Source: Bradyrhizobium cenepequi
GTDB taxonomy: Bacteria > Pseudomonadota > Alphaproteobacteria > Rhizobiales > Xanthobacteraceae
DNA: 64,000 nucleotides
Assembly (NCBI RefSeq): GCF_020329485.1
Contig: NZ_JAGKJI010000011.1
Location: 62,001 to 126,000 of the forward strand
Reading direction: 5' to 3'
The notes under the pieces were generated by a model. The model saw only the letters and a program-made list of their open reading frames with translations. It made no database searches and had not been told where the DNA came from. Below are positions 31,762-46,758 of the stretch, piece after piece; position 1 is the stretch's first letter, and the number at the start of each line of letters is the position of its first letter. The translations under genes were made by a program, and so were the position numbers.

Positions 31762-32597
31762 GATGCCGCCTTCCTGAACGTAAGCCCGCGCAGCAGCATG
31801 CGGTCGACGATGCCCTGGCGACGCAGCAGGAGCACCAGGATCAGCAGCGTGCCGAAAGCGGCGAGGCGCCAGTCGGCGATCGGTCGGAGGAACTCAGGCA
31901 GGAAGACCAGCAGTATCGCGCCGATCAGCGAGCCCAGCCCGAGCGTGGAGCCGCCGAGGATGGTCGCGAGCACGAAGTCGATCGAGCGCTCGAAGCCGAA
32001 ATTGGCGGGTTCGATATAGACGTGATGATGCGCAAACAGCCCACCGGAGATCGCAGCAACAGCGGCGCCGATCCCGAATGCGCTCACCTTGATCGCCACG
32101 GTGTTCAGTCCGACCAGCCCTGCCGCGGTCTCGTCGTCGTGTACGGCCTGCATCTCGAGCCAGACGCGCGAGCGTTCGACCAGGATCAGGACGGCAAGGA
32201 TGCCTCCGGCCCATGCCCAGATATAGCCGACCGAAATGTGCGCCATGCCGTGAAAGCCGCCGGACCCGCCCATCGCTGGGAAGTTGATGAAGAAGCTGCG
32301 CATCATCTCGCCGAAGCCGAGCGTGGCCATCGCAAGATAGATGCCCTTCAGCCGAAGCGCCGGGAAGCCCACGATCACGCCGATGATGCCGGCCGCGATC
32401 GCTGAGACAATCAACGCCGGCGTGACCGGCATGCCGATCGCGACCGTGAGGTAGGAACTCAGATAGGCGCCGATTGCCATGAAGGCCGCGTTGCCGAGCG
32501 ACAATTGGCCGGTCGCGAGGATGATGTAAACGCTGAGCGCGCCGAGCAAGAGGATGCCGGCTTCAGCGAACAGGCTGGCGTAATAGGTCGACATCAC
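31758..32597 (-). CDS. livM: Branched-chain amino acid-type ABC permease LivM
   Basis: Inner-membrane permease of 279 residues with about eight hydrophobic segments. The LivM hallmark LATGQLSLGNAAFMAIGAY (about residues 28-46) and the later FGRS/VRDDE-like cytoplasmic loop (here MQAVHDDETAAGLVGLN) are present. Its ATG overlaps the livH stop. The ligand of the whole importer is unknown; its position beside the MarR/HpaB/UbiD genes suggests an aromatic or heterocyclic acid rather than leucine. Confidence 0.9.
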   Translation of the reverse strand: MMSTYYASLFAEAGILLLGALSVYIILATGQLSLGNAAFMAIGAYLSSYLTVAIGMPVTPALIVSAIAAGIIGVIVGFPALRLKGIYLAMATLGFGEMMRSFFINFPAMGGSGGFHGMAHISVGYIWAWAGGILAVLILVERSRVWLEMQAVHDDETAAGLVGLNTVAIKVSAFGIGAAVAAISGGLFAHHHVYIEPANFGFERSIDFVLATILGGSTLGLGSLIGAILLVFLPEFLRPIADWRLAAFGTLLILVLLLRRQGIVDRMLLRGLTFRKAAS

Positions 32598-33472
32598 ACG
32601 CGCTGGCCTTGGTCGGAACGCGCGCCGCCGAGCAAACCTTGTGGGCGCAGCAGGAGGATCAGAATCATGAAGCCGTACACAACGAAGTCGCGGACCTGCG
32701 AGCCGCCGTAGGCCACGGTGAGCACCTCGACCACGCCGATCAGGGGACCTGCAAGCAGCGCGCCCCAGATGTTGGTGGTGCCGCCGATCACCATGACGGC
32801 GACCGCCTTCAGCCCGATCTCGACGCCAAGATATGGCGTGATGGCGCCGTAATGCAGCGCGATCAGGACGCCGGCAACGCCGGCCAGCGCGCCTGACAGC
32901 GCGAAGGCAAACAAGGTCAGCCGGTCCGCCGAGACGCCGAGCAGGCGCGAGACTTCGCGATTCTCAGCGACCGCGCGCAACGCGCGGCCGATGGTCGTTC
33001 GCTGTACGGTGTAGGCGACCAGCATCACCAGCACGATGGTGGCGCCCACCACGATCAGCTGCATCTGCCCCACGTTGATCGGGCCGAGCGTGTACTGCCG
33101 CCCCAGATACTCGTCAGGCAGTTGCAACGGGTCGGAGCCCCAGAGGTTGGTCGCGACGTTCTGCAGGATGATCGAGAAGCCGAGCGTGCTGAGCATCGGC
33201 GTGACGACCGGGGCACCACGCAACGGCTGATAGCCGATCCTCTCGATCAGCATGGCGGCGATGGCAGCGCCCGCCATGCCGCCGAGCACAGCGACGGGAA
33301 GGGGGAAGTTCGCTGCGATCAGCGTGAATCCGAAATAGCCGCCGATCATGAAGAGTTCGGCGATCGCCAGGTTGAGGATGCCGAGGATACCCATCACGAT
33401 GGAGAACGACAGCGCCAGCAGCGTGTAGATCGCTCCTAGCGTGAGACCGTTCACGAGTTGCTGCCACAGCAT
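32594..33472 (-). CDS. livH: Branched-chain amino acid-type ABC permease LivH
   Basis: Permease of 292 residues. I place the start at MLWQQLVNGLTLGAIY, the conserved LivH N-terminus; the open frame runs 45 codons further upstream into non-coding sequence after the binding-protein gene. LGILNLAIAELFMIGGYFG and LRAVAENREVSRLLGVSADR (the EAA-like loop) identify the family. It overlaps livM by 4 bp and follows the binding-protein stop by 80 bp. Confidence 0.9.
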   Translation of the reverse strand: MLWQQLVNGLTLGAIYTLLALSFSIVMGILGILNLAIAELFMIGGYFGFTLIAANFPLPVAVLGGMAGAAIAAMLIERIGYQPLRGAPVVTPMLSTLGFSIILQNVATNLWGSDPLQLPDEYLGRQYTLGPINVGQMQLIVVGATIVLVMLVAYTVQRTTIGRALRAVAENREVSRLLGVSADRLTLFAFALSGALAGVAGVLIALHYGAITPYLGVEIGLKAVAVMVIGGTTNIWGALLAGPLIGVVEVLTVAYGGSQVRDFVVYGFMILILLLRPQGLLGGARSDQGQRV

Positions 33473-33552
33473 GAAGTTTTCAGTCGGTAGATTTGATGCG
33501 CGTTGGAGAGAGCGGCCGGGCAGACCCGGCCACTGAATGGCTGCTGCGTCGA

Positions 33553-34782
33553 TCAGCAGCCGGCATGGTTGGGTGCGGAGCTGCATCCTCGCACCTTGGT
33601 GTCCCAAGTGCCGTTCTGCCCCTGCAACACGTAGAACGCCTTGATCGCGTCGCCCTCGTCGTTGAAGCCGATCGGCCCGCCGAGCCCCTGGAAGCCTTCC
33701 AGCTTGGCGAGATGGTCGCGGATCTTGGCGCGGTCGGCCTCGACGTCGGCGGGCTTGCCGGTCACGCCGGATTTCTTGATGGCATCGATATACATGCTGA
33801 CGATCTCGTAGATGTTGGCGTCATACATGCTGGGTTCGATCTCGGCCGGCAAACCGCTCTCCTTGCGCAATAGCGGCTGCAGGTTCGCGACGAACTTCTC
33901 GGCCGCTTCGCCTTTCATGGTGGCGAAGAAGGTCGCCGGCGCAACGATCGGAATTTCGGGCGCGGCCTTGAGGATCGCCGACGAGATCAGCTGGGTGGCG
34001 CCGACCACCGGCTTGATCAAGCCCTGGCGCTTCATCTCGCGCAGCACCGTGATGGCCTGGCTGTAGTCCGCGCTGACGACCACACCGTCCGGGTTCAGCG
34101 ACTTCAGCTTGGTGACCTGGGCGCTGACGTCGAGATCGCCAGTGTTGAACGACAGCGGATCGGATTCGTTGACGATGGCGATCTCGTTTGCCTTCAGCAC
34201 GGCGGGCATGATCGCCTTGCCGACGGTCGCTGCGGTTGCGTCCTTGGCATCGAAGATGATGCCGACGGTCTTGATGTTGAACGCCTTCTTGAAATAAGGC
34301 ACCGTCGTCTTGGCGAGCACGCCTTCGTCGATCGTGTTGCGGAAGGCCCAGGGGCGGTTGAGCTTGGCCACCCCAGGTTTCGAGGAAGCTTGCGAGGTCG
34401 CAACCAGCTTCATTTCATTGGCGACCGGAAACGTCACTTCGGCGGCGCTGCTGGTCAGCGGGCCTGCGATGGCGAGAACCTTTTCGTCGCCCGCCAGCTT
34501 GCGCAGCGAGCTCGCCGCCTGCGCCGGCTTGGCGCCGTCGTCGAGAATGGTGATCTTCAGCTTTGCGCCGTTGATGCCGCCTGCATCGTTGGTCTGCTTT
34601 TCCAGCATCCGCAATGTCACGCTGTTACTGCGGCCCCATTCGGCGAAGGGCCCGCTGCTCGGCACGATCGCGCCGAGCGCGATCTCCTGAGCTTGCGCCG
34701 ACGCGCTGCCCGCGCCCAGTGCGACGGCGAGAGCGGCGAGGGTGCCTAGCAGACGCGACGGTTTCGGTTTGAGCTTCAACAT
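33553..34782 (-). CDS. Liv-type ABC substrate-binding protein
   Basis: First gene of the liv operon, a periplasmic binding protein of 409 residues. I start it at MLKLKPKPSRLLG, giving a clean signal peptide that ends ASAQA. The frame is open further upstream, with an ATG at 34809. The mature protein opens EIALGAIVPSSGPFAEWG and continues as a peripla_BP_6 domain. The next gene upstream is a MarR regulator 154 bp away on the same strand, so the regulator may control it or be cotranscribed. Confidence 0.88.
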   Translation of the reverse strand: MLKLKPKPSRLLGTLAALAVALGAGSASAQAQEIALGAIVPSSGPFAEWGRSNSVTLRMLEKQTNDAGGINGAKLKITILDDGAKPAQAASSLRKLAGDEKVLAIAGPLTSSAAEVTFPVANEMKLVATSQASSKPGVAKLNRPWAFRNTIDEGVLAKTTVPYFKKAFNIKTVGIIFDAKDATAATVGKAIMPAVLKANEIAIVNESDPLSFNTGDLDVSAQVTKLKSLNPDGVVVSADYSQAITVLREMKRQGLIKPVVGATQLISSAILKAAPEIPIVAPATFFATMKGEAAEKFVANLQPLLRKESGLPAEIEPSMYDANIYEIVSMYIDAIKKSGVTGKPADVEADRAKIRDHLAKLEGFQGLGGPIGFNDEGDAIKAFYVLQGQNGTWDTKVRGCSSAPNHAGC

Positions 34783-34935: not shown

Positions 34936-35640
34936 TTAGTTCTCTTTGGAAGCTATTTTTTTCGGCATTGAGGTGAAGTTTGCGGCAACCTGTCGCGCCT
35001 TTCCGGTCTTCCGCGGCTTCGATGAGGATTTGCGCGACGGCGGGGTGATGGGCTCGATGTTGGTTTCGGCCAGGTAACGCTGCAGCGCAATAGCGCGATC
35101 GCTCGACTCGACCAGGCGCTGCACCAGGTCGAGCAGCAGCTCGAACTCCCGTGCGCTCAGGCAGCCGAATTCTACGTCGTTGATCTGCATTTGCGTCGGC
35201 GCCAGCCGCTCGAGCAATTCGGCGCCCCGCCGTGTGACGCTGAGCGAGAGCCGTCTGCGGTCGCCCTGATGGGCCGCCTTTTCGATCAAGCCCTTGCTTT
35301 CCAGCTTGTTGGTCACGGTGGTGACGAAGGCGCCGCTGAGATGGAGGTGATCGGCGACGGTCTTGACGTGGACATCACCCTGCAAGGCCAGATGCCGGAT
35401 CGCGATCAACGTGGTGTATTCGATTCCGGGAAGACCGATGACGGCGGCATGGCCGTCGCGCAGGGTTTGATGCCGGACCAGGAATCCGAACAGGCTGTGC
35501 ACCAGTTTGCGAAACTGCTGGTCGGAACCGTCTACGAGCAGTTCGGGTCGGGAGGTCGTGAGCGCAGCGCGATGGGCGATGCGTCCGGCGCCGGGCTTGG
35601 TGGTGATGGCGCGCGCTGCTGATTTAGGCAAGGGATTCAT
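34936..35640 (-). CDS. MarR-family transcriptional regulator, copy 1
   Basis: A 234-residue MarR protein with a core winged helix (VHVKTVADHLHLSGAFVTTVTN, then DRRRLSLSVTRRGAELL at the wing). Both ends carry extensions, the C-terminal one rich in Lys, Arg and Ser. It is clearly paralogous to the MarR gene at 39253: both share the helix HLHLSGAFVT, a long basic N-terminus and the SDQQFRKLVHSLF/SDPAFRHFIHDTL segment. It is divergent from the first HpaB gene, and the shared gap contains a TAGCT-N9-AGCTA site. It probably represses until an aromatic ligand binds. Confidence 0.88.
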   Translation of the reverse strand: MNPLPKSAARAITTKPGAGRIAHRAALTTSRPELLVDGSDQQFRKLVHSLFGFLVRHQTLRDGHAAVIGLPGIEYTTLIAIRHLALQGDVHVKTVADHLHLSGAFVTTVTNKLESKGLIEKAAHQGDRRRLSLSVTRRGAELLERLAPTQMQINDVEFGCLSAREFELLLDLVQRLVESSDRAIALQRYLAETNIEPITPPSRKSSSKPRKTGKARQVAANFTSMPKKIASKEN

Positions 35641-35747: not shown

Positions 35748-35766
35748 TAGCTTCGGATATTAGCTA
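35748..35766. promoter_or_regulatory. MarR-type operator, copy 1 (TAGCT-N9-AGCTA)
   Basis: Perfect inverted repeat, extended by one pair to ATAGCT...AGCTAT (35747-35767). It lies between divergent MarR copy 1 and the first HpaB gene. A consensus -35 box TTGACA at 35730-35735 puts the site across the expected -10 region of the HpaB promoter, where bound protein would block RNA polymerase. The same 19-bp pattern recurs at 39189, 39968 and 43688. Confidence 0.75.
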
Positions 35767-35827
35767 TCTAATTCTACAACCGGCTGGCAGGAGATGCCAT
35801 TGGTCGGTGTTCTTTTTGGGGATCGCG

Positions 35828-37330
35828 ATGGGCGAGGCATCATCCGGGGCGACTGCGGGCGGTTTGGTCAAGAACGGCGCCGAGCACATCGCAAGCGTGC
35901 GTGACGGCAGGGCGGTCTTTCTCGACGGCGAGCGCATCGCCGATGTATCGACGCATCCCGCGTATCGTCACGCCGTCGAATCGGCCGGAGTGCTGTACGA
36001 CTACCAGGCGCATTCCGACAATCTGGAGCGGATGACCTTTGACGTCGGCGGCGGCCGGCGCGTCAACCGCGCCTGGCAGCTCCCCAGGAGCTACGAGGAT
36101 CTGGTCGAGCGTCGAGAGGCGCTGGTAGAGTGGGCCGAACTGTCGTGCGGCTATCTCGGCCGGTCGCCCGACCACGTCGCCTCTTCGATGTCCGGCATGA
36201 TGATGGGCATCGAGGTTTTCGAGAACTATGATGTGAAGCGCGCCCAGGCGTTTCGGGACTGGTTCGACTACGCCCGCAGGAACGACCTGTTTCTGACCTA
36301 CGTCATCAACAACGTGCAGGGCGACCGCTCCAAGGCATTTGGCAGCCAGGGCAAGGGCGCCGAAGACATGGTGGCCCGCATCGTCGACGAGGACGCCTCC
36401 GGCATCACCATTCGTGGCGCCAAGCTATTCGCCACCAGCGCGATCATGGCCAATGAGCTGTTTGTGAGCTCCGGCCAGCCGCTCCGGCCGGGCGAAGAGC
36501 ATCTGGCATTTTCCTGTGCGCTGCCGATGGGCACCAAGGGATTGAAGATGCTGTCGCGGAAGTCGTTCGAGGCGCACGCGGTCAGCGAGTACGATAATCC
36601 TCTCGCCTATCGCTACGACGAGAACGACGCGTTGGTGTTCTTCGACGACGTCAAGGTGCCGTGGGAGCGGGTTTTCCTGCTGCGCAACACCGATATGTGC
36701 CGGGCGCAACTGCATGATACGCCGGCGCACATCTATCAGAACTACCAGGCGCAGATCCGGCTTTCAGTCAAGTTGCGGTTCCTGGTCGGCCTGGCGCGCG
36801 GCATCGCGCAGACCATCGGCACCATCAATTTTCCGCCGGTGGTCGAGACGCTCGGCAAGCTTGCGTCGCAGGCAGCGCTGATCGAGGGCATGGTGTTCGG
36901 CATGGAAGCCGGCGGCGCCATGCGCGGTGAATATTTCCTGCCCAACAAGCATTTGCTTTATGCGGCGCAGGTGCAGTCGCAGGAAATGTACCCGCAGATC
37001 ATCAGCACCATCCGCGAATTGGCCGGTGGGGCGCTGCTGATGCTGCCGTCATCGGTGCGGGATTTCGCCAATCCGGAATTGGCCGACATCATCTCGCTCA
37101 CCCAGATCTCGCCGGCGATGAGCGGCGAGCAGCGGGTCAAAATGCTGAAAATGACCTGGGACGCGGTCGGCTCGGAATTCGCCTCGCGCCATCTGCAATA
37201 CGAGATGTTCTACGCCGGCGCGCAGTTCGTCACCCGGGGCCACAGCTACCGCACTTACGACTGGGATCGCGCCTCCAGCCTCGCCGACCGATTGGCGAGC
37301 AAGTACCGATTGCCGGATTTCGAGAGCTAA
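35828..37330 (+). CDS. HpaB-type FADH2-dependent monooxygenase, copy 1
   Basis: A 500-residue member of the 4-hydroxyphenylacetate 3-monooxygenase (HpaB) family, which hydroxylates aromatic rings with reduced flavin supplied by a separate reductase. The family core LGRSPDHVASS (Arg112), DENDALVFFDDVKVPWERVF and TWDAVGSEFASRHLQYEMFYAG is present. In E. coli HpaB the substrate residues are Arg113, Tyr117 and His155. Here the matching positions are Arg112, His116 and Tyr158, so the Tyr and His are exchanged. The start at 35828 follows GGGG; the open frame upstream is non-coding. It ends convergently with the amidohydrolase gene (4-bp overlap). The reductase is probably the HpaC-like gene at 40008. 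Confidence 0.87.
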   Translation: MGEASSGATAGGLVKNGAEHIASVRDGRAVFLDGERIADVSTHPAYRHAVESAGVLYDYQAHSDNLERMTFDVGGGRRVNRAWQLPRSYEDLVERREALVEWAELSCGYLGRSPDHVASSMSGMMMGIEVFENYDVKRAQAFRDWFDYARRNDLFLTYVINNVQGDRSKAFGSQGKGAEDMVARIVDEDASGITIRGAKLFATSAIMANELFVSSGQPLRPGEEHLAFSCALPMGTKGLKMLSRKSFEAHAVSEYDNPLAYRYDENDALVFFDDVKVPWERVFLLRNTDMCRAQLHDTPAHIYQNYQAQIRLSVKLRFLVGLARGIAQTIGTINFPPVVETLGKLASQAALIEGMVFGMEAGGAMRGEYFLPNKHLLYAAQVQSQEMYPQIISTIRELAGGALLMLPSSVRDFANPELADIISLTQISPAMSGEQRVKMLKMTWDAVGSEFASRHLQYEMFYAGAQFVTRGHSYRTYDWDRASSLADRLASKYRLPDFES

Positions 37331-38523
37331 TGCGCGCCGCCTGAGAAGTCGCGCGGCAGGCGGTTTTCCGCGACGCGTATGTTGCGGATGCCGGCCGGTG
37401 TGTTGCGGCTGCGACCCACAAAGCGCGGAACGCCTGCCGTCAACACGGCGGATACTGCGGGAACGTCTCCGTTGCGCAATGCCGACAAGGCGCCGTCCTG
37501 CGAGCCGCCGGCGCAGGCATCGATGAGCAGCACGTCGGCTTCCTTGCCGGGCTGCAGCAGACCGGTGTTGAGCCGATAGACGCGCGCATTATTGCCAGTG
37601 GCGGCTGCGATCGCCTGTTCCGGCGGCATGCCACCGAGGCTGGCGAGGTGGCTGATCGTGTAGAACATGCCGAGCGGCATGATGCCGCTTCCGGTGGGCG
37701 TATCCGTGGCGATCAGCAGCCGCTCCGGCTGTCCCGCTTGGTCGAGCAGTTTGGCCGTGAGCAGCGCGGTGCGCAGATTGCCCGCGGTGCAAAGCTGCAA
37801 GGCGATGGTGCTCTCATTGACCAGCCGGGCAAAGCCTGCCTCCGGCATCGCCACCGGACCGCCATTGACGTGAAACGATACGGTCGGATTGGACGCCAGC
37901 ACGTGCTCCGCCCAGATGCCTGACGAGCCGGGGATCGATGAGCCGCCGGTGTGCATGGTGGTCACCATGCCCAATCGCCGCGCCGCCAGCATCAATGGTG
38001 CATAGTCGAATGGCGTGGCGAAGGCACCGAATCCTGCCTTGGCGAGCCAGATTCCGGCATTTGCGAGTTCTTCGAGGTCAGCTTCTGTGAGACCGGGCTC
38101 GAGAATGACCGAGCCGGCGTGAACCCGCACGCCGCCGGGGCGGTAGTCCAGGAAGCAGGCCCGCGCCGCCAGCGCCAACGCCTTAACGCCGGTCGCATCC
38201 TTCGGCCGGCCCGGCACATGCACTTCCGATGCGGTGATCGCCGTCGTCGTGCCGCCGTGCAGATAGCTTTCGAGATAGCCGACGACGCGCTGGCGCGGGG
38301 TGTAGTCGCCGAACGTGATGTGCACGTGGCTGTCGATCAGTCCGGGCACTGCCGTCGTTCCCGCGGCATCGATCACCACGTCGCAAGCCGCGACCGCGTC
38401 AGCGGAAAGGGTCCCGACCTCGACGATCATGCTGTCGTTGATGAGGATGCCGTCACCCTTGGCGAAGGGCATGGCAAGGTCGCCCGTCACGATGGTGCCG
38501 ATGTTGACGATCGCGGTGCGCAT
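37327..38523 (-). CDS. Amidohydrolase, enamidase-like
   Basis: A 398-residue metal-dependent amidohydrolase. The first metal motif is DSHVHITFG (about residue 63). Histidines in MVTTMHTGG and VSFHVNGGP follow, and the late aspartate is in LIATDTPTGSGIMPLGM. The TDTPTGSGIMPLG segment and the overall length recall enamidase, which hydrolyses a cyclic enamide (6-oxo-tetrahydronicotinate) in Eubacterium barkeri; dihydropyrimidinase-like activities are an alternative. It follows the DUF1185 gene by 21 bp as a two-gene operon. A MarR-type operator sits before the operon, which ties it to the HpaB and UbiD genes and suggests ring opening of a lactam intermediate. Confidence 0.8.
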   Translation of the reverse strand: MRTAIVNIGTIVTGDLAMPFAKGDGILINDSMIVEVGTLSADAVAACDVVIDAAGTTAVPGLIDSHVHITFGDYTPRQRVVGYLESYLHGGTTTAITASEVHVPGRPKDATGVKALALAARACFLDYRPGGVRVHAGSVILEPGLTEADLEELANAGIWLAKAGFGAFATPFDYAPLMLAARRLGMVTTMHTGGSSIPGSSGIWAEHVLASNPTVSFHVNGGPVAMPEAGFARLVNESTIALQLCTAGNLRTALLTAKLLDQAGQPERLLIATDTPTGSGIMPLGMFYTISHLASLGGMPPEQAIAAATGNNARVYRLNTGLLQPGKEADVLLIDACAGGSQDGALSALRNGDVPAVSAVLTAGVPRFVGRSRNTPAGIRNIRVAENRLPRDFSGGAH

Positions 38524-38544
38524 GGTGTGGTCCGTATCGCTAGG

Positions 38545-39126
38545 TTAGTGCAGCCCGTCCTCGCCGACGATGGCGTCGGCGGACAGGCCGCCAACGCGCG
38601 CGTTGAGGCGGCCGCGATTGGCAAGGCAGACGATCAGCGCGATTTCATCGGCGGCCGGCGCATCCGGCGGCAGCGTGACCGAGACGCCGTCGTAGTGTGA
38701 GCGGACGTACAGGGCGTCCTTATGGGCCAATGGAACGTCGATCAGGCATCCCGGCGCCGCGAGTTTCGTGAAGGAAGGGATCCAGGCCTTGCCACCGCCC
38801 ACGGCCTCCCGGAGCGGCGTCGCAAAGGTCGTGGTCAGCAGGGCGTTGGCATGCTCGAGTTCACCGCCGAGGCCGACGACGCCGCCCTTGCCGTAGCTTT
38901 CAGCCTTGTGCGGCCCGAGCGCCTCGACTGCCAGTTTGGCCAATATTGCTCCGATCTCCGCGCTGGCGGCCGTCCCCTCGGACAGGTCCTCGACGTAGCG
39001 GCCGGCATAGGGGTTCTGGATGATCGCGACCGCAGCGACGCGGCGCAGCGGCCTGGCGTGCCGTCGGCCGGCCTCGACCTCCTTGTGGTCGGTGAAACAG
39101 AGCATGCGCCTGACATCGAGTTTCAT
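38545..39126 (-). CDS. Amino acid synthesis family protein (DUF1185, PF06684)
   Basis: A 193-residue protein matching the PF06684 (AA_synth/DUF1185) family: RRVAAVAIIQNPYAGRYVEDL, the GKGGVVGLGGELEHANALL segment and the HYDGVSVTLPP ending are characteristic. Known structures of the family show a chorismate-mutase-like variant fold, and no reaction has been firmly assigned. Its operon with the enamidase-like amidohydrolase suggests it binds or transforms a cyclic amide or amino-acid-like intermediate, but this is inference. It starts 62 bp downstream of a TAGCT-N9-AGCGA site. Confidence 0.83.
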   Translation of the reverse strand: MKLDVRRMLCFTDHKEVEAGRRHARPLRRVAAVAIIQNPYAGRYVEDLSEGTAASAEIGAILAKLAVEALGPHKAESYGKGGVVGLGGELEHANALLTTTFATPLREAVGGGKAWIPSFTKLAAPGCLIDVPLAHKDALYVRSHYDGVSVTLPPDAPAADEIALIVCLANRGRLNARVGGLSADAIVGEDGLH

Positions 39127-39188
39127 TCTAAGTCGTCTCTCTCAAAATAGCCGCCGCAAATCCTGCCGCATCAAATATGTTTGAGCAA

Positions 39189-39207
39189 TAGCTTAGTTGC
39201 AAAGCGA
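39189..39207. promoter_or_regulatory. MarR-type operator, copy 2 (TAGCT-N9-AGCGA)
   Basis: Same 19-bp pattern with one mismatch in the right arm. It lies upstream of the DUF1185/amidohydrolase operon. On the minus strand a candidate promoter overlaps it: TTGCAA at 39202-39197 and CATATT at 39179-39174 with a 17-base spacer, so the site covers the -35 region. Confidence 0.6.
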
Positions 39208-39252
39208 GAGCATGGCGGGCGTGTGAAGCGCGAGGGTAGCCAATCGGGAAGT

Positions 39253-39849
39253 CTAGCGATCCCACAGCGCGCGCTGGCGGCTGCGTAATGTATTCTTGAT
39301 CAGGTGTGCGGCCTCGTCCGCGGCATCGACCATGCCGGACATCAGCTTGCGCAATTTCTTGAAATCGCTTGCCGACAATCCGCGAAACAGCATGTCGTTG
39401 ACCGGACGTTGCGCTGCCGCCAATTCGCTCAGCAAGGCTCGGCCCTTTGGGCTCACCGCCAGGATGACCCTCCGCCGATCCTCCGAATCGATGTGTTTCC
39501 GGACAAGGCCTCTGGCGACGAGCTTGTTGATCTCCATTGTAACGAAGGCGCCGCTGAGGTGCAGGTGCTCGGCGACCTGATTCACTCCAATCTTCCTATC
39601 CTTGCCGCTCAGATGTGCGACCGCAAGCAGCACCGTATACTGCGTTCCGGACAGTCCGATCACCGTGCCGAGTTGACTCCGTACCGCCTGCAATCTTGCT
39701 GAAAAGGCGAGCGTATCGTGAATGAAATGTCGGAAGGCTGGATCGGATCCATCCGCCATCAAATGCGGGATCGAGACCGTTGGCTCAATTCCAGGCTTTT
39801 GTGCCTTCCGATTGGTCTTGGCCGTCCGTGATCGTGTCTTCGTCAGCAT
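39253..39849 (-). CDS. MarR-family transcriptional regulator, copy 2
   Basis: A 198-residue MarR protein. The winged helix is IGVNQVAEHLHLSGAFVTME, followed by DSEDRRRVILAVSPKGRALL, with dimerisation helices at both ends. I place the start at MLTKTRSRTAK because GAGGAA lies eight bases upstream; the frame extends to a GTG at 39948, but that would overlap the promoter of the flavin-reductase gene. It is a paralogue of MarR copy 1 and is divergent from the HpaC/HpaB2/cupin/UbiX operon, with an operator in between. Repressor of the same regulon is the natural reading. Confidence 0.87.
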   Translation of the reverse strand: MLTKTRSRTAKTNRKAQKPGIEPTVSIPHLMADGSDPAFRHFIHDTLAFSARLQAVRSQLGTVIGLSGTQYTVLLAVAHLSGKDRKIGVNQVAEHLHLSGAFVTMEINKLVARGLVRKHIDSEDRRRVILAVSPKGRALLSELAAAQRPVNDMLFRGLSASDFKKLRKLMSGMVDAADEAAHLIKNTLRSRQRALWDR

Positions 39850-39938
39850 GAGTTCCTCGCTGTTGCGGCGCGATATGACGTCTGGCACAAGCACGGACAG
39901 CTTGAGTTGCGCTGCCGCAAAGTTCGGCATCAGTTTGC

Positions 39939-39966
39939 TTGACAGCACTCTTTTTGCCTCGATAAT
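39939..39966 (+). promoter_or_regulatory. Strong candidate promoter of the HpaC operon
   Basis: TTGACA (39939-39944), a 16-base spacer, and GATAAT (39961-39966), close to the sigma-70 consensus. Transcription would start near 39973, inside the operator at 39968-39986, and reach the flavin-reductase ATG at 40008. Confidence 0.65.
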
Positions 39967-39967
39967 A

Positions 39968-39986
39968 TAGCTTTGTTAGAAAGCTA
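39968..39986. promoter_or_regulatory. MarR-type operator, copy 3 (TAGCT-N9-AGCTA)
   Basis: Perfect 19-bp site whose arms extend to 7 bp (TAGCTTT-N5-AAAGCTA). It directly follows the -10 box of the HpaC promoter and covers the expected transcription start, a classical repressor position. It lies in the divergent gap shared with MarR copy 2, which would allow autoregulation. Confidence 0.78.
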
Positions 39987-40007
39987 ATTATGAGCTTGTG
40001 ACTCTCG

Positions 40008-40538
40008 ATGACTGCAACCTCAGATCCCGATGCACGTGCCTTCCGCCGGGCGTTGGGGCAGTTTGCCACCGGGGTTGCCGTGATCACCGCGCAGGCGGCG
40101 GACGGAAGCGCGATCGGGCTGACCATGAGCTCGTTCAATTCCGTCTCGGTCGATCCACCGCTGATCCTGTTCTCGATCGACCGCAAGGCGTTCAGCCTGG
40201 CCGCGATGACGGAGGCCAAGGGCTATGCGGTGAACATCCTGGGGCATGATCAGGAACATCTGTCGAACCAGTTCGCCCGGGCGCTCGGCGACAAGTGGGC
40301 CGTCGTGGAGCACACGATCGGCCATATGTCGGCGCCGCTGCTTGCCGGCGCGTTGGCGCATTTCGAATGCGTGCCCTATGCACAGTATGACGGCGGTGAT
40401 CATCTGATCTTCGTCGGGAGGGTTGTGCAGTTTTCCGCCCATCCTTCCAAAGAACCGCTTATATTCTTTCGCGGGGCCTATCGCAGCCTTGCCGGAACCG
40501 AAAGCAGCCCGGAATGGCCGCTTCCAATGCACTACTAA
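40008..40538 (+). CDS. Flavin reductase (HpaC-type)
   Basis: A 176-residue NAD(P)H:flavin reductase that feeds FADH2 to the monooxygenase. FRRALGQFATGVAVITAQ, GLTMSSFNSVSVDPPLILFSI (flavin-binding core, about residues 42-62) and HFECVPYAQYDGGDHLIFVGRV are the conserved family blocks. It is the first gene of the operon, 27 bp before the second HpaB gene, and is the only reductase in the window, so it probably serves both HpaB copies. Confidence 0.9.
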   Translation: MTATSDPDARAFRRALGQFATGVAVITAQAADGSAIGLTMSSFNSVSVDPPLILFSIDRKAFSLAAMTEAKGYAVNILGHDQEHLSNQFARALGDKWAVVEHTIGHMSAPLLAGALAHFECVPYAQYDGGDHLIFVGRVVQFSAHPSKEPLIFFRGAYRSLAGTESSPEWPLPMHY

Positions 40539-40565
40539 ATCCATCCAAGGGATCTCGAGGCCTTC

Positions 40566-42065
40566 ATGATCAAGACTGGCGCACAGCACATTGCGAGCCT
40601 ACGCGATGGACGCGAAGTTTATCTCGACGGCAAGCTGGTAACCGATGTCACCACCCATCCGGCGTTCCGTGGCGCAGTAGCCTCTGTCGGTCGGATGTTC
40701 GATTTCCAGAGCGCGCCGGAAAATCGCGATCTGATGACATTCGAGACCGATACCGGCACGCGCGCCAATCGCATCTGGGAGTTGCCTGGCAGCTACGAGG
40801 CGTTGGTCAGGCGCCGGCGCGGGCTGGAAGCGTGGACCGAACTGCATGCCGGCTTCATGGGCCGGGCGCCGGACCATGTCGCCTCCTGCATCGCGGGCAT
40901 GTATATGGGGCTCGAGGTCTTCGAGGCCTATGACAAGGAGCGCGCCAAGGCGCTTGCGGACTATTATCGCTACGCGCGCGACAACGATCTCTACCTGACT
41001 TACGTCATCATCAATCCGCAGGCGGACCGCTCGAAGAGCGCTGCCGGGCAGGCCGATCCATACTTGTCCGCGGGCATCGTGTCGCGCGATGCCGACGGCA
41101 TCACCGTGCGTGGCGCCAAGATGCTGGCGACCGGCGGGATCATGGCCAATGAGGTGTTCGTCACCTGCATCCAGCCGCTGCAGCCCGGCGACGAGAAATA
41201 CGCGATCTCGTTTGCGATCCCGATGAACACCAAGGGTCTGAAAATCCTCTCGCGCAAATCCTATGAGGCTGGGGCGGGGGCTGTGTTTGATAGCCCGCTG
41301 GCGAGCCGCTTCGACGAGAACGATGCTGTTCTGTATTTCGACGACGTCAAGGTGCCCTGGAACAGGGTGTTCATCGTCGACGACATCGCGATGTGCCAGA
41401 AGCAATTCCATGTCACGCCGGCGCACGTCTATCAGAATTACCAGGCCATGATCCGCCTCTCGATCAAGTTGCGCTTCCTTGCGGGAATTGCGCATCGCAT
41501 CGCGGAAACCAATGGCATCATCGGCTTCCCGCAGGTGAAGGAGACGCTCGGCCAGCTCGCCGCCGAAGTCAGCATGGTGGAAGCGTTCATGGTCGCGATG
41601 GAGACCAAGGGCCAGCAGCGCGGCGCCTATTTCGTGCCGGATCGGCAGATGCTCTACGGGGCGCAGACCATGACGCAGCAGCTCTATGCCAAGATCATCA
41701 ACGCGCTGCGCGAACTTGCCGGCGGCGGCATGATCATGCTGCCGTCCTCCGTGAAGGATTTCGACAATCCGGATCTGGCCAAGCTGATCGGCAAGACCCA
41801 GCAGTCGCCGGCGGCGAACGCTGTGGACAAAGTGAAGTTCTACAAGCTCGCCTGGGATGCGGTCGGATCGGAATTTGCCTCCCGGCACACGCAATATGAA
41901 ATGTTCTATGCCGGCGCGACCTTCGTCACCAAGGGGCATGCCTTCCGCACCTATGACTGGCAGAAATCGGCGGTGTTGCTGGACAAGATGCTGTCGAGCT
42001 ACGATCTGGCGGACGAATTGACCAACGAGAAAAAACCGGCTTCATCGTCCCGGGCGGTCGCCTAA
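40566..42065 (+). CDS. HpaB-type FADH2-dependent monooxygenase, copy 2
   Basis: A 499-residue HpaB-family oxygenase closely similar to copy 1 over its whole length (MGRAPDHVAS, DENDAVLYFDDVKVPWNRVF, AWDAVGSEFASRHTQYEMFYAG). The residues matching E. coli HpaB Arg113, Tyr117 and His155 are Arg100, His104 and Tyr146, again with Tyr and His exchanged. It follows the flavin reductase by 27 bp and precedes the cupin by 18 bp, so reductase and oxygenase form a two-component system. Substrate probably differs from classical 4-hydroxyphenylacetate; a phenol or hydroxylated heterocycle released by UbiD decarboxylation would suit the operon. Confidence 0.9.
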   Translation: MIKTGAQHIASLRDGREVYLDGKLVTDVTTHPAFRGAVASVGRMFDFQSAPENRDLMTFETDTGTRANRIWELPGSYEALVRRRRGLEAWTELHAGFMGRAPDHVASCIAGMYMGLEVFEAYDKERAKALADYYRYARDNDLYLTYVIINPQADRSKSAAGQADPYLSAGIVSRDADGITVRGAKMLATGGIMANEVFVTCIQPLQPGDEKYAISFAIPMNTKGLKILSRKSYEAGAGAVFDSPLASRFDENDAVLYFDDVKVPWNRVFIVDDIAMCQKQFHVTPAHVYQNYQAMIRLSIKLRFLAGIAHRIAETNGIIGFPQVKETLGQLAAEVSMVEAFMVAMETKGQQRGAYFVPDRQMLYGAQTMTQQLYAKIINALRELAGGGMIMLPSSVKDFDNPDLAKLIGKTQQSPAANAVDKVKFYKLAWDAVGSEFASRHTQYEMFYAGATFVTKGHAFRTYDWQKSAVLLDKMLSSYDLADELTNEKKPASSSRAVA

Positions 42066-42083
42066 ACTTCAGGAAAGTCGAAA

Positions 42084-42464
42084 ATGGCAATCAACAAGCT
42101 TCACGACGAGTTTCGCGCCATCGATATGTCGAGCGGGTGGGAGACGCCGGCGGGCTATCCGGCCGGCATCCAGCAGAAGATCCTCTCGGGCGCCCTGGAT
42201 GAGGTGAACAAGCGCGGCAGCCGCACCCGGCTGCTTCGGTTCGAGCCGGGCGTTTACACGACCAAGCCGTTCGTGCACGAATATTGGGAAGAGGTCTTCC
42301 TGTTTTCGGGCGACCTGATCGTCGGCAATGACGAGCAGGGTAATGGTGGTGAGTCGTTCAAGCCGAATACCTATGCCTGCCGCCCGCCGGGTGTCTATCA
42401 TGGACCGTTCAAGTCGGTGACCGGCTGCCTTCTGATGGAGATTCACTATTTCGATCCGGCCTGA
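42084..42464 (+). CDS. Cupin-domain protein (ChrR-like)
   Basis: A 126-residue single cupin. The RLLRFEPGVYTTKPFVHEYWEEVFLFSG block (about residues 48-75) has the cupin-1 pattern with likely metal ligands in HEYWEE. PPGVYHGPFKS supplies the second-motif histidine. Small cupins next to aromatic oxygenases may be dioxygenases or isomerases, or simply bind a metabolite. Its last 17 bases overlap the best candidate start of the UbiX-family gene. Confidence 0.8.
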   Translation: MAINKLHDEFRAIDMSSGWETPAGYPAGIQQKILSGALDEVNKRGSRTRLLRFEPGVYTTKPFVHEYWEEVFLFSGDLIVGNDEQGNGGESFKPNTYACRPPGVYHGPFKSVTGCLLMEIHYFDPA

Positions 42465-43059
42465 GGGCGAGCCGAGACGTCTGATCGTCGGCATCACTGG
42501 AGCGTCCGGCGCCATCTATGGCGTCCGGCTGTTGCGGCTGTTGAAATCGGCGTCGATCGAGACTCATCTGGTGATGAGCCGTTCGGCAAAAATCACGCTG
42601 ACCCAGGAACTCGACGTCAAGGTCTCGGACGTGACGGCCTTGGCTGATGTCGTCCACCAGGTCGACAATATCGGCGCCCCGATCTCGAGCGGCTCGTTCA
42701 AGACGGTCGGCATGGTAATCGCGCCGTGTTCGATGCGAAGCCTTGCCGAGATCGCCAGCGGTGTGACGTCGTCGCTGGTGACCCGCGCAGCCGACGTGGT
42801 CTTGAAAGAGCGCCGCCGGCTCGTGCTGATGGTGCGCGAGGCGCCGCTGCATCTCGGGCATCTCAAGTCGATGGCGGCCGCGACCGAAATCGGCGCCATC
42901 ATCTACCCGCCCGTGCCGGCGTTCTACGCCCGCCCGGAAAGCCTCGAGCAAATGGTCGACCATACGCTCGGCCGCGTCCTCGACCTCTTTGATATCTCGA
43001 CCGACGTGGTCAGTCGCTGGCAGGGACTCGCGCCTGCCGATACCAAGGAATCGCGTTGA
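42448..43059 (+). CDS. UbiX-family flavin prenyltransferase (non-canonical start)
   Basis: Makes prenylated FMN, the cofactor needed by UbiD decarboxylases. The conserved opening RLIVGITGASGAIYGVRLL lies at 42475-42531, and the family blocks APCSMRSLAEIASG, REAPLHLGHLKSMA and PPVPAFYARP follow in order. There is no ATG, GTG or TTG in frame before the flavin-binding GITGASG motif; the first is TTG at 42532, which would remove it. The best candidate is ATT at 42448, seven bases after GGAG and inside the end of the cupin gene (203 residues). CTG at 42481 is the alternative. The frame is otherwise intact. The next gene overlaps its stop. Confidence 0.8.
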   Translation: MSIRPEGEPRRLIVGITGASGAIYGVRLLRLLKSASIETHLVMSRSAKITLTQELDVKVSDVTALADVVHQVDNIGAPISSGSFKTVGMVIAPCSMRSLAEIASGVTSSLVTRAADVVLKERRRLVLMVREAPLHLGHLKSMAAATEIGAIIYPPVPAFYARPESLEQMVDHTLGRVLDLFDISTDVVSRWQGLAPADTKESR

Positions 43060-43631
43060 GCGGCGACGCGCCACGGCCGGCGCGCGGCGCCACGGCTGGC
43101 GCGAGCCAGGCGATCGATGCGGAAAGCTGGGCGTTCGCGCTAGAGCTTTATGCGGAGCCCGGCGTCAGTGATGCCTGCCTTCAATTGCAGAACGAATGCG
43201 GCGTCGACGTCATGATGTTGTTGATGGCGACGTTCGCTGCGGTCCGCCGCGGGATCATGTTGACGCCAACAGATGTTGCAGAGATGGATGCGGCATGTCG
43301 CGGCTGGCGTGAGCAGATCGTGCTCCCCCTGCGCGCGCTCCGCACGACGTTGAGATCGGGGCCGCCGCCGGCGCCGAACGAGCAGACCGAGAAACTGCGG
43401 TCGAGCATCAAGGCGGCCGAGCTGTCCGCCGAACGGCTGCAGAATGACGTGCTCGCGCAATGGCTTGCGAAGCTGCCATCGCAGTCGCGTGCACTGCAGC
43501 GTAAGGACATCATCAGCGCATTGCGAGCCGTGGTCGATCTTGCGTTGCAAGGGCGCCGCGGACAGCCGAGCGCAGCGCAGCTCTCGCTGATCGACGTGAT
43601 CGTCGGTAAAGCGGTTGGGATTTCCAACTAA
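43056..43631 (+). CDS. TIGR02444 family protein (DUF2390)
   Basis: A 191-residue protein with the TIGR02444 pattern: WAFALELYAEPGVSDACLQL and NECGVDVMMLLMATFAA at residues 24-62, then an all-helical remainder. The family has no assigned reaction. The start is TTG at 43056, overlapping the UbiX stop (TTGA), so the two are translationally coupled. Its place between UbiX and UbiD suggests a helper role in the decarboxylase system, which is inference only. Confidence 0.75.
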   Translation: MSGDAPRPARGATAGASQAIDAESWAFALELYAEPGVSDACLQLQNECGVDVMMLLMATFAAVRRGIMLTPTDVAEMDAACRGWREQIVLPLRALRTTLRSGPPPAPNEQTEKLRSSIKAAELSAERLQNDVLAQWLAKLPSQSRALQRKDIISALRAVVDLALQGRRGQPSAAQLSLIDVIVGKAVGISN

Positions 43632-43682
43632 GCCGGTCAGCCCACGCGTACATCTTCACCACTGTGTGCCTAGCAAGCAGGC

Positions 43683-43710
43683 TTGACTAGCTTTATTGCT
43701 TAGCTATTCT
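43683..43710 (+). promoter_or_regulatory. Candidate promoter of the UbiD-TTT operon
   Basis: TTGACT (43683-43688), a 16-base spacer and TATTCT (43705-43710). An operator of the TAGCT-N9-AGCTA type fills the spacer, so the unit can be transcribed separately from the UbiX operon but under the same control. Confidence 0.45.
43688..43706. promoter_or_regulatory. MarR-type operator, copy 4 (TAGCT-N9-AGCTA)
   Basis: Perfect 19-bp match to the pattern at 35748 and 39968. It lies 134 bp upstream of the UbiD start, between the candidate -35 and -10 boxes. Confidence 0.75.
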
Positions 43711-43726
43711 TGTTTAACAATTTTTC

Positions 43727-43839: not shown

Positions 43840-45261
43840 TTGCAGCCTGAAGTTCTCGATACGCGTTTCCGTTCGGCGCTGGCCCGTCTGGCACAGCGTG
43901 GCCGCATCCTCAGCTATGAAAAGCCAGTCGATCCGCATCTCGAGCTCGCTGCGATACTGAAGAAGCACGACGGCAAACAGGTGTTGCTGTTTCCGTCGGT
44001 CAAGGGCGCGGACGCTCCGGTCGTCGGCAACCTCCTGAGTTCGAGGGAAAATTGCGAAGCCGGCTTCGGACTGGATTTCAGAGGCATCCGCGGTCTCGTG
44101 CAGCGCGCGCTCGGTGGTCCGCTGAAGCCGGAGCTCGTGAGCGAAGTTCCTGTTCAGGAAGTGGTGCTGCGCACCGGCTTTGACATCACGAAGATCATTC
44201 CCGCGTTGTTTCATGCGCCGGGCGATGCTGGGCGTTACATCACCGCCGGCATTGTGGTGGTGAAGGATCCGGTCACCGGCGTCTACAACGCCTCCTACCA
44301 TCGCCTGCAGCTGTTGGGACCGGACCGGGTCGCAATCAAGCTCGACTTCGGCCGTCATTTGCGGCTTGCGTTCGAGCGCGCCAAGGAGCAGGGCAGGTCG
44401 CTGCCGGTCGCGGTCTGTATCGGCACCGACCTCGCGCTGCACTTCACGGCGGCGACCATGGGTTCGCAGATGCCGGAAAGCGCCGACGAGCTTGCCGTCG
44501 CCGGCGGGCTGGCGGGTCGGCCGCTCACGGTTGGTAGAGCGGTATCGCAGGACATCTTGGTGCCGGCGGAGAGCGAGTTTGTTCTTGAAGGCGAGATCTT
44601 GGCCGACGAGCTGGCTCCCGAGGGGCCATTCGGCGAATTCGTCGGCTTCGCCGCGCCGGCGGCCGATGCGCCGGTGTTGAAGATCACTGCGGTCACGCAT
44701 CGGCTGCGTCCGATCTACCACGTCATCAATGGCTTCGGGCGGGAGACCATCATCCTGCGGAAATACGTGCTGGAGGCCAGCCTCCTCAAAGTGCTGCAGT
44801 CGGCGATTCCGATCGTGACCGACGTCGAGATGACGTCAGGTGGCCTGCATCGCTTCCATGCAGTAATCCAGGTCCACAAGCAGAGTCGGCAGCACAATGG
44901 GCTTCAGCGCAATGCGATCTTGGCGGCGTTCGGCGCTTTGAAGGATCTCGATCTCATCACCGTTGTCGACCACGACATCGACATCCGCGATCCCATCGAC
45001 GTGGAATATGCAGTGGCGACGCGCATGGAAGCATCTTCCGATCTGTTTCTCATCCCGGGCGCGCGCGGGCACGAATATGTGCGCGTCAGCAAGGAAGGCG
45101 TGCGCACCAAGCTCGGCATCGACGCCACGGTGCCGTTCGAGGATCAGGTCAAGTTCCGGCGCGTCGAGTTTGCGCCGACGCCGGTCGAGCTCAGCGAATT
45201 CACGGCGGGTGAGGCAGTCGCCAGAAGCGCGCTCGGTCTTGCCGGATCGAACATCACCTGA
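43840..45261 (+). CDS. UbiD-family prenyl-FMN-dependent decarboxylase
   Basis: A 473-residue UbiD-family enzyme for reversible decarboxylation of aromatic or unsaturated acids. The family blocks are present: the YEKPVDPHLELAAI opening, YNASYHRLQLLGPDRVAIKL, and APEGPFGEFVGF, which carries a catalytic glutamate, with further acidic residues in DHDIDIRDPIDVEYAVATR. The start is TTG at 43840 with AGGA six bases upstream. The UbiX homologue that would make its cofactor lies 0.8 kb upstream, and a solute transporter follows directly. The shared operator suggests that decarboxylation is one step of the HpaBC/amidohydrolase pathway. Confidence 0.9.
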   Translation: MQPEVLDTRFRSALARLAQRGRILSYEKPVDPHLELAAILKKHDGKQVLLFPSVKGADAPVVGNLLSSRENCEAGFGLDFRGIRGLVQRALGGPLKPELVSEVPVQEVVLRTGFDITKIIPALFHAPGDAGRYITAGIVVVKDPVTGVYNASYHRLQLLGPDRVAIKLDFGRHLRLAFERAKEQGRSLPVAVCIGTDLALHFTAATMGSQMPESADELAVAGGLAGRPLTVGRAVSQDILVPAESEFVLEGEILADELAPEGPFGEFVGFAAPAADAPVLKITAVTHRLRPIYHVINGFGRETIILRKYVLEASLLKVLQSAIPIVTDVEMTSGGLHRFHAVIQVHKQSRQHNGLQRNAILAAFGALKDLDLITVVDHDIDIRDPIDVEYAVATRMEASSDLFLIPGARGHEYVRVSKEGVRTKLGIDATVPFEDQVKFRRVEFAPTPVELSEFTAGEAVARSALGLAGSNIT

Positions 45262-45301: not shown

Positions 45302-46267
45302 ATGATGCGAATTGCAGCGGCCATTCTGTCGGCAGGCATGGCATTGGGCGCCACGACGGCATCGGCGCAGGAGTGGCCGAGCAAGACGATCAAGCTGGTC
45401 GTGCCCTATGCACCGGGTGGCTACACCGATTCAGTCGCGCGCATCGCGGCGCGATATCTCGAGAAGGAATTGGGGCAGACGGTGATCGTCGACAACCGCG
45501 CCGGCGGCGGCGGCATCGTCGGCTCCGACATCGTGGCGAAGTCGCCGGGCGACGGTTACACACTCTGCATCTGCAGCGTCGGCGCCATCTCGGTCGCTCC
45601 GGTCGCGCAAACGACGTCGTATGATCCGGTGAAGAGCTTCAAGCCGGTCAGCATCGTCAGCACGATTCCGCAGACCGTGATCGTCAATCCGTCGCTCCCG
45701 ATCAATACGATGCAGGATCTCGTTACGTATGCCAAGGCGAACCCGGGCAAGCTGAGCTATGGGTCGAGCGGTGCCGGCGGCCTGATGCACTACTCGGTGC
45801 AGCTCTTCGATGCGCGGAACGGGACCAAGATGACCCACGTTCCCTTCAAGGGCGGCTCGCCGGCCACGGCCGCCGTGGTCTCGGGCGAAGTCAATCTGTC
45901 CTTCACCAACATGACCGATGCATTGCCGCAGATGGAAGCCAACAAGGTGCGTGCGCTGGCGGTGACGTCTGCAAAGCGCAACGAGTTCGCGCCGCAATTG
46001 CCGACCGTCTCTGAAACGGTGACACCGGGCTACAGCGTCGAGTCATGGAATGGCGTGATGGCGCCAGCCAGCACGCCGGATCCCATCATCGCCAAACTGT
46101 CCGATGTGCTGAAGAAGATGGCGGCCGACCCCGAGATGAAGAAGAGCATGGCGGTAGTCGGCGCCTCGACGGTGTTCACGACACCAGAGGAATATAAGGC
46201 GCAGATCGCGGCTGAAGTCGAGCAGTGGCGCGCGCTGCTCAAGGAAATCGCCGAGAAGAAGAACTGA
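45302..46267 (+). CDS. Tripartite tricarboxylate transporter binding protein (TctC/Bug)
   Basis: Periplasmic binding protein of 321 residues with a signal peptide ending TTASAQ. The mature start EWPSKTIKLVVPYAPGGYTD is the Bug-family signature. The central segment FTNMTDALPQMEANKVRALAV is also conserved. ATGs at 45302 and 45305 follow GGGGAAACG. It sits 40 bp after UbiD and is followed by TctB and TctA genes, so the three form a complete importer. Such systems carry carboxylates including aromatic dicarboxylates. Confidence 0.9.
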   Translation: MMRIAAAILSAGMALGATTASAQEWPSKTIKLVVPYAPGGYTDSVARIAARYLEKELGQTVIVDNRAGGGGIVGSDIVAKSPGDGYTLCICSVGAISVAPVAQTTSYDPVKSFKPVSIVSTIPQTVIVNPSLPINTMQDLVTYAKANPGKLSYGSSGAGGLMHYSVQLFDARNGTKMTHVPFKGGSPATAAVVSGEVNLSFTNMTDALPQMEANKVRALAVTSAKRNEFAPQLPTVSETVTPGYSVESWNGVMAPASTPDPIIAKLSDVLKKMAADPEMKKSMAVVGASTVFTTPEEYKAQIAAEVEQWRALLKEIAEKKN

Positions 46268-46305
46268 CTGGCCTCAGAACAGGTCAGCGGGGAGGCAATA
46301 TCAGC

Positions 46306-46758
46306 ATGAGGTCACCTGCCGGGCGCGGCCATAACACCGACTTCTATTCCGGCTTGCTGCTGGTAGCGGTCGCGACCGTGGCGCTGCTTTATATCCGAAC
46401 GCTTGAAGTCGGCACCGTTCTGGAGATGGGGCCTGGCTACTTTCCGCTCGGGCTTGCGCTCGTCTTGTTGGGCATGGGACTTTGCCTCGCCGTCAAGGGG
46501 CTGCTCGCCGAAGGCAGTCCGATTGGATCGTTCCATCTGCGGCCGTTGATCTGCATCCTGCTGTCCTTCACAGCCTTCGGCGTGCTGGTCGAGCGCGCCG
46601 GGTTGATTATTGCGATCCTGGCGCAGGTGGCGATCGCGCATTTCGCGTCCGTCGAGACCCGTTGGCGGCAAAGCCTTGTGAGCGGCGTGCTGCTGGCGGC
46701 GGCGTCAGCCGTGATCTTTGTCTGGCTTCTCAAGATCCCGGTGGACCTGCTGCCATGA
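46306..46758 (+). CDS. Tripartite tricarboxylate transporter small membrane subunit (TctB)
   Basis: Small inner-membrane subunit of 150 residues with four hydrophobic helices. LEMGPGYFPLGLALVLLGMG (about residues 46-65) is the TctB family block. The start at MRSPAGRGH fits; GGGGAGG lies 10 bases upstream. Its stop overlaps the TctA start by 4 bp. Confidence 0.88.
   Translation: MRSPAGRGHNTDFYSGLLLVAVATVALLYIRTLEVGTVLEMGPGYFPLGLALVLLGMGLCLAVKGLLAEGSPIGSFHLRPLICILLSFTAFGVLVERAGLIIAILAQVAIAHFASVETRWRQSLVSGVLLAAASAVIFVWLLKIPVDLLP

Follow-up and report, generated by a model that had tools for sequence, protein, structure and literature searches.

Two MarR paralogues and a shared palindromic operator: a predicted catabolic regulon in Bradyrhizobium cenepequi

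We analysed a 64,000-nucleotide stretch of Bradyrhizobium cenepequi DNA (contig NZ_JAGKJI010000011.1, positions 62,001 to 126,000; hereafter the window), in which the palindrome TAGCT-N9-AGCTA, a candidate operator, recurs among the genes of a predicted catabolic cluster that includes two MarR-family regulator genes, marR1 and marR2. An earlier note on this sequence had described three perfect copies and one copy with a mismatch in front of four transcription units. Using a pattern scan of the whole window, we found all four copies where they had been placed, along with a fifth, again with one mismatch, before the livKHMGF operon (Table 1); the count of four units was too low. Beyond the TAGCT/AGCTA core the operator extends to the consensus ATAGCTT-N7-AAGCTAT, a palindrome of 19-23 bp whose best cases read ATAGCTTTGTNNCAAAGCTAT.

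Table 1. Candidate operator sites and genes of the cluster, in window coordinates
Feature	Position	Strand	Basis and remarks
Operator site 1	35748..35766	+	Perfect; divergent gap marR1/hpaB1; one TAGCTTC half-site; matrix score 23.5
Operator site 2	39189..39207	-	One mismatch; precedes AA_synth (DUF1185) and the amidohydrolase, which form one operon; matrix score 22.1
Operator site 3	39968..39986	+	Perfect; divergent gap marR2/hpaC; TAGCTTT flavour; over the expected start-point region; matrix score 36.0
Operator site 4	43688..43706	+	Perfect; upstream of ubiD; TTGACT overlapping its first base; matrix score 29.1
Operator site 5	34937..34955	-	One mismatch; TAGCTTCCAAAGAGAACTA on the LivK strand; upstream of livK; matrix score 14.3, fifth best in the window
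livKHMGF, branched-chain-type ATP-binding cassette (ABC) transporter operon	30302..34782	-	Pfam
marR1, MarR-family regulator	34936..35640	-	Pfam MarR_2, 39.0 bits
hpaB1, flavin-dependent monooxygenase, HpaB family	35828..37330	+	Pfam HpaB_N and HpaB
Amidohydrolase	37327..38523	-	Pfam Amidohydro_1
AA_synth/DUF1185 protein	38545..39126	-	Pfam PF06684
marR2, MarR-family regulator	39253..39849	-	Pfam MarR_2, 42.7 bits
hpaC-like flavin reductase	40008..40538	+	Pfam Flavin_Reduct
hpaB2, flavin-dependent monooxygenase	40566..42065	+	Pfam
Small cupin	42084..42464	+	Cupin_7/ChrR, weak and sub-threshold (25.2 bits; gathering score 27)
ubiX, flavin prenyltransferase	42451..43059	+	NCBIfam NF004685 above cut-off; start codon uncertain
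DUF2390/TIGR02444 protein	43056..43631	+	Pfam/NCBIfam scans
ubiD family decarboxylase	43840..45261	+	Pfam/NCBIfam scans, solved relatives
tctCBA tripartite tricarboxylate transporter	45302..48257	+	Pfam/NCBIfam scans
Thiamine pyrophosphate (TPP) enzyme and DUF2848 protein	48298..50701	+	Downstream of tctA, gaps of about 40 bp

The gene names proposed earlier were confirmed in substance by the Pfam and NCBIfam scans. MarR1 and MarR2 both pass the 27-bit cut-off of MarR_2 (PF12802) and thus belong to the MarR family; they are 44% identical and have the helix stretch LHLSGAFVT in common. HpaB1 and HpaB2 are 57% identical and reach at most 264.8 and 356.9 bits, respectively, below the HpaB-1 and HpaB-2 equivalog cut-offs (480.2 and 885.2 bits). 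Judged by sequence, both are HpaB superfamily members without a substrate assignment; the closest solved relatives of HpaB2 are 4-hydroxyphenylacetate 3-hydroxylases. Several NCBIfam families of amidohydrolases matched the amidohydrolase weakly, each well short of its cut-off, and the TPP enzyme and DUF2848 genes probably belong to the ubiD-tctCBA operon.

A trait of the MarR family is a regulator gene in or beside the promoters that it controls, together with an inverted-repeat operator at the promoter elements. Here, marR1 and marR2 border the two divergent gaps that hold sites 1 and 3, as had been noted before, and the inverted repeat coincides with clear promoter elements at three of the five sites. 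At site 3, TTGACA-16-GATAAT stops one base short of the site and TTGACA-18-TAATAT enters it by one base. Hence, the expected hpaC start point falls inside the site, which bears out the earlier view that this copy covers the start point of a near-consensus promoter. At site 1, a TTGACA ends 12 bp ahead, so that its -10 element would fall in the site. The broader statement that every copy sits in a promoter region is borne out by such elements at hpaB1, hpaC and ubiD; for livK and AA_synth the promoter call is weak, a simple sequence scan having given no convincing promoter there.

With up to two mismatches allowed, the window contains 12 matches where 7.79 are expected, and 6 of 100 shuffles reach 12. 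Hence, we treated as informative only sites with no or one mismatch. The B. cenepequi genome (8.47 Mb) holds 39 such sites, five of them perfect; 5 of the 39, including three of the perfect ones, lie within the 8.8 kb between 34937 and 43706. At the density of the 34 remaining sites, a stretch of 8.8 kb should contain about 0.035 (Poisson P for at least five, approximately 5e-10). Outside the cluster the motif is at background level.

To this count we added a two-strand weight matrix. Its training set consisted of 58 distinct sites that precede HpaC, UbiD, HpaB1, AA_synth, LivK and UbiX genes in the named relatives, with the close relative L086 excluded. Since these training sites were picked by the core pattern, what the matrix adds is the flanks and inner bases. 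We found that it ranks sites 3, 4, 1, 2 and 5, in this order, as the five best of the window. The next scores are 9.9, for a match at 39176-39194 that overlaps site 2, and 6.3 at 28743; the top score in 40 Markov shuffles of the window was 10.1, and 12 was never reached. The other two perfect matches of the genome score 6.0 and -0.9, against 23.5-36.0 for the three perfect copies here. Among the perfect or one-mismatch sites scored outside the cluster (L001, L005-L008, L011-L015 and L196-L202), none scores above 13.7; the genes beside three of the outside sites (a beta-lactamase family gene, an ammonium transporter with P-II, and a gene for a Pfam-less protein) had no link to the cluster.

We also considered double operators, with two sites shifted by 13 bp, and rejected them for the window, where only the match at 39176 reaches 9.9 and all other shifted matches score below 3. 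As AGCT is itself palindromic, partial shifted matches are expected, and no double operators are claimed there. Upstream of HpaC in five Rhodopseudomonas loci (L113, L115, L120, L121 and L127), two operators do overlap with a 13-bp shift and a common half-site; by their sequence, these could hold two dimers.

Conservation was examined in relatives. When 198 genomes of the family were searched with MarR2, 82 of them, counting the own genome, had a match with an expectation value (E) no higher than 1e-20; 40 stretches, each at most 19 kb long, were examined. The named loci, identified by way of the MarR recognition helix, are the 80 best of 162 from a scan with alignment A1 of 15 MarR proteins. 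A gene was counted as covered when a site with at most one mismatch lay within 320 bp upstream; matches that fell short of the identity thresholds, or whose upstream sequence was shorter than 320 bp, were dropped. We found that 66 of the 80 named loci hold such a site. It is kept before the orthologues of first genes, most strongly before HpaC (52/60 genes, 34 with a perfect site) and also before UbiD (7/13), HpaB1 (4/8), AA_synth (3/8) and LivK (1/5). Coverage was 33/68 for MarR2, 4/14 for MarR1, 2/7 for UbiX and 3/24 for DUF2848, and the site is rare before operon-internal genes (HpaB2 1/60, cupin 0/53, TctC 0/10, TctA 0/9, amidohydrolase 0/8, TPP enzyme 0/7 and DUF2390 0/7). Good copies come from Bradyrhizobium, Tardiphaga, Xanthobacter, Rhodopseudomonas, Methylobacterium, Roseomonas and Azoarcus records, and those from Paraburkholderia and Pandoraea match less well; across many Alphaproteobacteria and in Azoarcus, orthologous promoters retain the motif. 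These loci are not all independent: judged by length, L086 and L179 are the same contig, as are L096 and L181, and several of L046-L085 are contigs of named loci.

Within the genus, four genomes (G327, G369, G232 and G301) have a cluster that is syntenic as far as examined and keep all five sites, the fifth lying on another contig in G327. Site 1 is identical in sequence in the window and the four relatives. Site 5, which overlaps the marR1 stop codon (the livK start being taken as 34782 on the minus strand), is kept in all four and in the Tardiphaga-like loci L074, L075 and L076. In L176 and L178 the marR1 frame stops earlier and the site is still kept; hence coding constraint is not its explanation there. 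Among 265 genomes searched, HpaB1 at 96% identity or more occurs in the own genome and four others. The full cluster (window 30302-50701) is thus rare in the genus, which suggests an accessory island.

Tardiphaga-like genomes carry the genes as two unlinked modules with operators on both. One comprises hpaC-hpaB2-cupin and marR2, to which some genomes add ubiX and ubiD-tctCBA; the other comprises liv and marR1 relatives, to which some add hpaB1, AA_synth and the amidohydrolase. A single contig of G066 holds both modules at a distance of about 1.5 Mb, each with sites. Hence, genomic proximity does not account for the shared operator. Related palindromes also occur far from the cluster in four and five of six Tardiphaga-like genomes; in G066 they precede a dehydrogenase E1 component gene (L203:3026-3044) and a phosphate-selective porin gene (L204:3060-3078). 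They may be an extension of the regulon or the site of another regulator.

Natural variation among relatives bears on the link between operator and regulator. In G369 (L177 8870-9150), marR2 is cleanly gone from between the AA_synth and hpaC sites, all five operators are kept, and the best match to MarR2 in the genome is MarR1 itself (E 4.6e-35). In G236 (L187), the regulator next to the hpaC/ubiD module shares 87% identity with MarR1; both half-sites of the ubiD operator there and one half-site of the hpaC operator contain TAGCTTC. These cases, one of each kind, suggest from sequence comparison that MarR1-type proteins can serve the MarR2-type module. An in-frame TAG in G232 was considered as a second loss of marR2 and rejected, as it removes only the last few residues. 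Three genomes, G316, G414 and G261, have an HpaB homologue without a site nearby (L189, L193 and L195; best score 5.1), and no close MarR2 homologue was found anywhere in them (best 26-27% identity); L194 likewise has no site by its HpaB homologue (none above 2.6), and its MarR relative is 37% identical. Usually the regulator gene adjoins the site. G302 is an exception in linkage: it has a perfect site before hpaC (L188:3629-3647, score 35.7), no MarR gene within the 10 kb examined and a MarR2 homologue of 51% identity on another contig, an arrangement that would fit action in trans.

New here are two flavours of the operator, TAGCTTT in the MarR2 group and TAGCTTC in the MarR1 group, which track one residue of the recognition helix. 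The regulator tree, in which identical proteins only were merged (121 to 116) and groups were assigned by eye, contains a MarR1 group with a support of 0.996, a MarR2 group with one of 0.67 and some unplaced proteins. We then counted the two bases after TAGCT, with identical site contexts removed. At MarR2-only loci, TT accounts for 75 half-sites, TC for 1 and other pairs for 8; at MarR1-only loci, TC accounts for 10, TT for 6 and other pairs for 11 (Fisher P approximately 1e-8 on TT/TC by group, uncorrected for relatedness). This count set aside 19 loci of unclear group (9 distinct sites; TT 12, TC 0) and 8 loci with both groups (23 sites). Where the residue after GAFVT is Thr, position 7 of the half-site is C in 13, T in 8, G in 3 and A in 2 cases; with other residues, mostly Ile, Met or Asn, it is T in 83, G in 2 and C in none. 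Identical site contexts were again removed, and this count left out the window as well as any locus whose helices were mixed or unread. G369 was counted as Thr, since only MarR1 remains there; without it, the Thr count is C 11 and T 6. The lone TC of the MarR2 group fits Azoarcus L123, where a MarR2-like regulator with a MarR1-like Thr after GAFVT goes with TAGCTTCG. In the window, sites 3 and 4 are of the MarR2 type, sites 1 and 5 of the MarR1 type, and site 2 is neither clearly. Given these two flavours, MarR1 and MarR2 probably each favour their own module but can act on the other, and the paralogues probably overlap in targets without being identical.

We put the probability that the motif is the MarR operator of a single regulon comprising these units, as its sequence context indicates, at about 0.87; that each paralogue acts on both modules is less sure than this core claim. 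The proposal in the earlier note that these scattered genes form one system gains support from the clustering of sites, their conservation at orthologous promoters and the unlinked modules that both carry operators. Two of the outcomes that the note had named as refuting, many random copies genome-wide and a lack of conservation at orthologous promoters, were looked for and did not refute it. Several points weigh on the other side. Fourteen of the 80 named loci have no site with at most one mismatch: in eight the matrix finds one at 15-31 (L101 at 25.8, L104, L107 at 30.7, L116 at 23.6, L151, L153, L154 and L164), and in six (L112, L119, L132, L136, L144 and L148) it gives no more than 11.7. 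Eight of the 60 HpaC genes have no site within 320 bp, and LivK is covered in just one of five named loci. The named loci were gathered via the regulator, so that all coverage is conditional on its presence. Loci with MarR1 homologues of 55-61% identity (L079, L082, L186 and L190-L192) show only weaker matches, at 12-16; the betaproteobacterial sites, Azoarcus excepted, are poor palindromes; and two sites elsewhere in the own genome, L199 (13.7) and L202 (13.1), score near the LivK site, with adjoining genes of no evident connection.

Chance recurrence of a short palindrome might be read from the two-mismatch count, which is near expectation, yet the clustering of close copies in the own genome, the matrix ranking and above all conservation at orthologous promoters, which we consider refuting, make this barely credible. 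Nor is it at all probable that the motif serves some other regulator encoded at an unlinked place, its closeness to marR genes being incidental. The G302 site, with no MarR gene in its neighbourhood, could be taken that way, but G302 has its close homologue on another contig, the three site-less genomes have none, site and MarR gene stay paired across many genera and gene orders, and the half-site base covaries with the MarR helix, Azoarcus included. The MarR proteins might instead be activators or dual regulators from these sites, since some MarR proteins do activate, according to one report (PMC4737184), and the livK and AA_synth sites are not clearly on a core promoter. The hpaC, hpaB1 and ubiD sites, however, lie on or between the -35 element, the -10 element and the start point, where a bound dimer should block polymerase, and we think activation improbable.

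The division of the half-site flavours by MarR group, and the occurrence of the modules apart in other genomes, would also suit two separate regulons, with MarR1 acting on liv, hpaB1 and AA_synth only, MarR2 on hpaC and ubiD only, and the common motif a matter of paralogue ancestry. Against this stand the hpaC and ubiD sites kept in G369 without marR2, and the G236 module with its MarR1-like neighbour; each is a single case, and a recent loss could leave sites behind in G369. Two regulons thus seem unlikely to us, though less so than any of the foregoing alternatives. A reading that joins these observations, which we offer tentatively and would not favour over its denial, is that MarR1 and MarR2 came together along with their modules and jointly run one regulon by means of an operator in two flavours: Thr, as opposed to mostly Ile, Met or Asn, after GAFVT would set the preference for C or T at position 7 of the half-site, the common core would let either protein hold the whole regulon, as G369 without marR2 suggests, and two effectors from two parts of one heteroaromatic-acid pathway could be read together.

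Under the single-regulon proposal, homodimers of MarR1 and MarR2 would occupy the palindrome of 19-23 bp, on the promoters or next to them, and block five units: livKHMGF; hpaB1; AA_synth-amidohydrolase; hpaC-hpaB2-cupin-ubiX-DUF2390; and ubiD-tctCBA-TPP-DUF2848. As two sites lie in divergent gaps, both marR genes are probably also repressed. A substrate or intermediate of the pathway would release the dimers from DNA, so that uptake, decarboxylation by UbiX/UbiD, hydroxylations of the HpaB/HpaC type and opening of the amide would start together.

Our guess at the substrate is an aromatic acid whose ring may contain nitrogen or oxygen. The closest solved relatives of UbiD are 6h6v/6h6x and AnInD (7p9q); 6h6v is the furan-2,5-dicarboxylate decarboxylase HmfF, and AnInD is an indole-3-carboxylate decarboxylase. 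An amidohydrolase is encoded in the cluster, and L131 and L117 have an amidase gene between the cupin or hpaC gene and the DUF2848 gene; these relatives and the amidase suggest a heteroaromatic acid. Neither operator nor cluster appeared in the titles and abstract beginnings of the matches listed by an open-access literature search, and a literature search for DUF2848 returned no paper.

Between the ubiD operator and ubiD lies a palindromic repeat, GGAAAAGTGGAAACCGGTTTTCC, with flanks (window 43710-43830, the pattern at 43738-43760), of which the own genome has 59 copies with at most one mismatch. The stretch is present in the ubiD leader of L177 and missing from L178 and L179; hence it looks like a mobile intergenic repeat.

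As proposed, the system is of an ordinary kind, a local MarR regulon; what makes it interesting is the pairing of paralogues and the way in which operator and helix vary in nature. About twenty genes, many annotated by family only, are joined in one predicted catabolic system with two transport systems; the predicted operator is directly testable, and the paired flavours provide naturally occurring data on whether and how the DNA specificities of MarR paralogues come apart.

Several known systems resemble it. CouR is a MarR-type repressor of p-hydroxycinnamate catabolism, named alongside FerC and the CouR of R. palustris in its report (PMC4737184). As described there, it is likewise a local MarR repressor with one inverted repeat in several catabolic promoters, and a repeat in a divergent gap is proposed to serve two promoters (PMC4737184). 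By analogy with CouR, the positions of the sites at hpaC, hpaB1 and ubiD fit repression by occlusion with induction by a ligand. The CouR operator differs, with cATTGA and TCAATg around a 5-bp spacer, as does the single regulator (PMC4737184), in contrast to AGCTT/AAGCT and two paralogues here. A further difference from the CouR system is that the regulon genes scanned with Pfam contain no coenzyme A ligase (AMP-binding) domain. HmgS, in tyrosine degradation, has a MarR regulon with a conserved operator that was likewise predicted by comparative genomics, in other genes and other taxa (Alteromonadales) (PMC5343134). HpaR, described as a MarR-family repressor of an hpa operon (PMC7180172), is similar in that the targets here include HpaB/HpaC-type genes. 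The regulators here are nevertheless not members of the HpaR equivalog TIGR02337, the top NCBIfam match of MarR1, since MarR1 scores 35.7 bits and MarR2 26.7 bits against a cut-off of 121.2.

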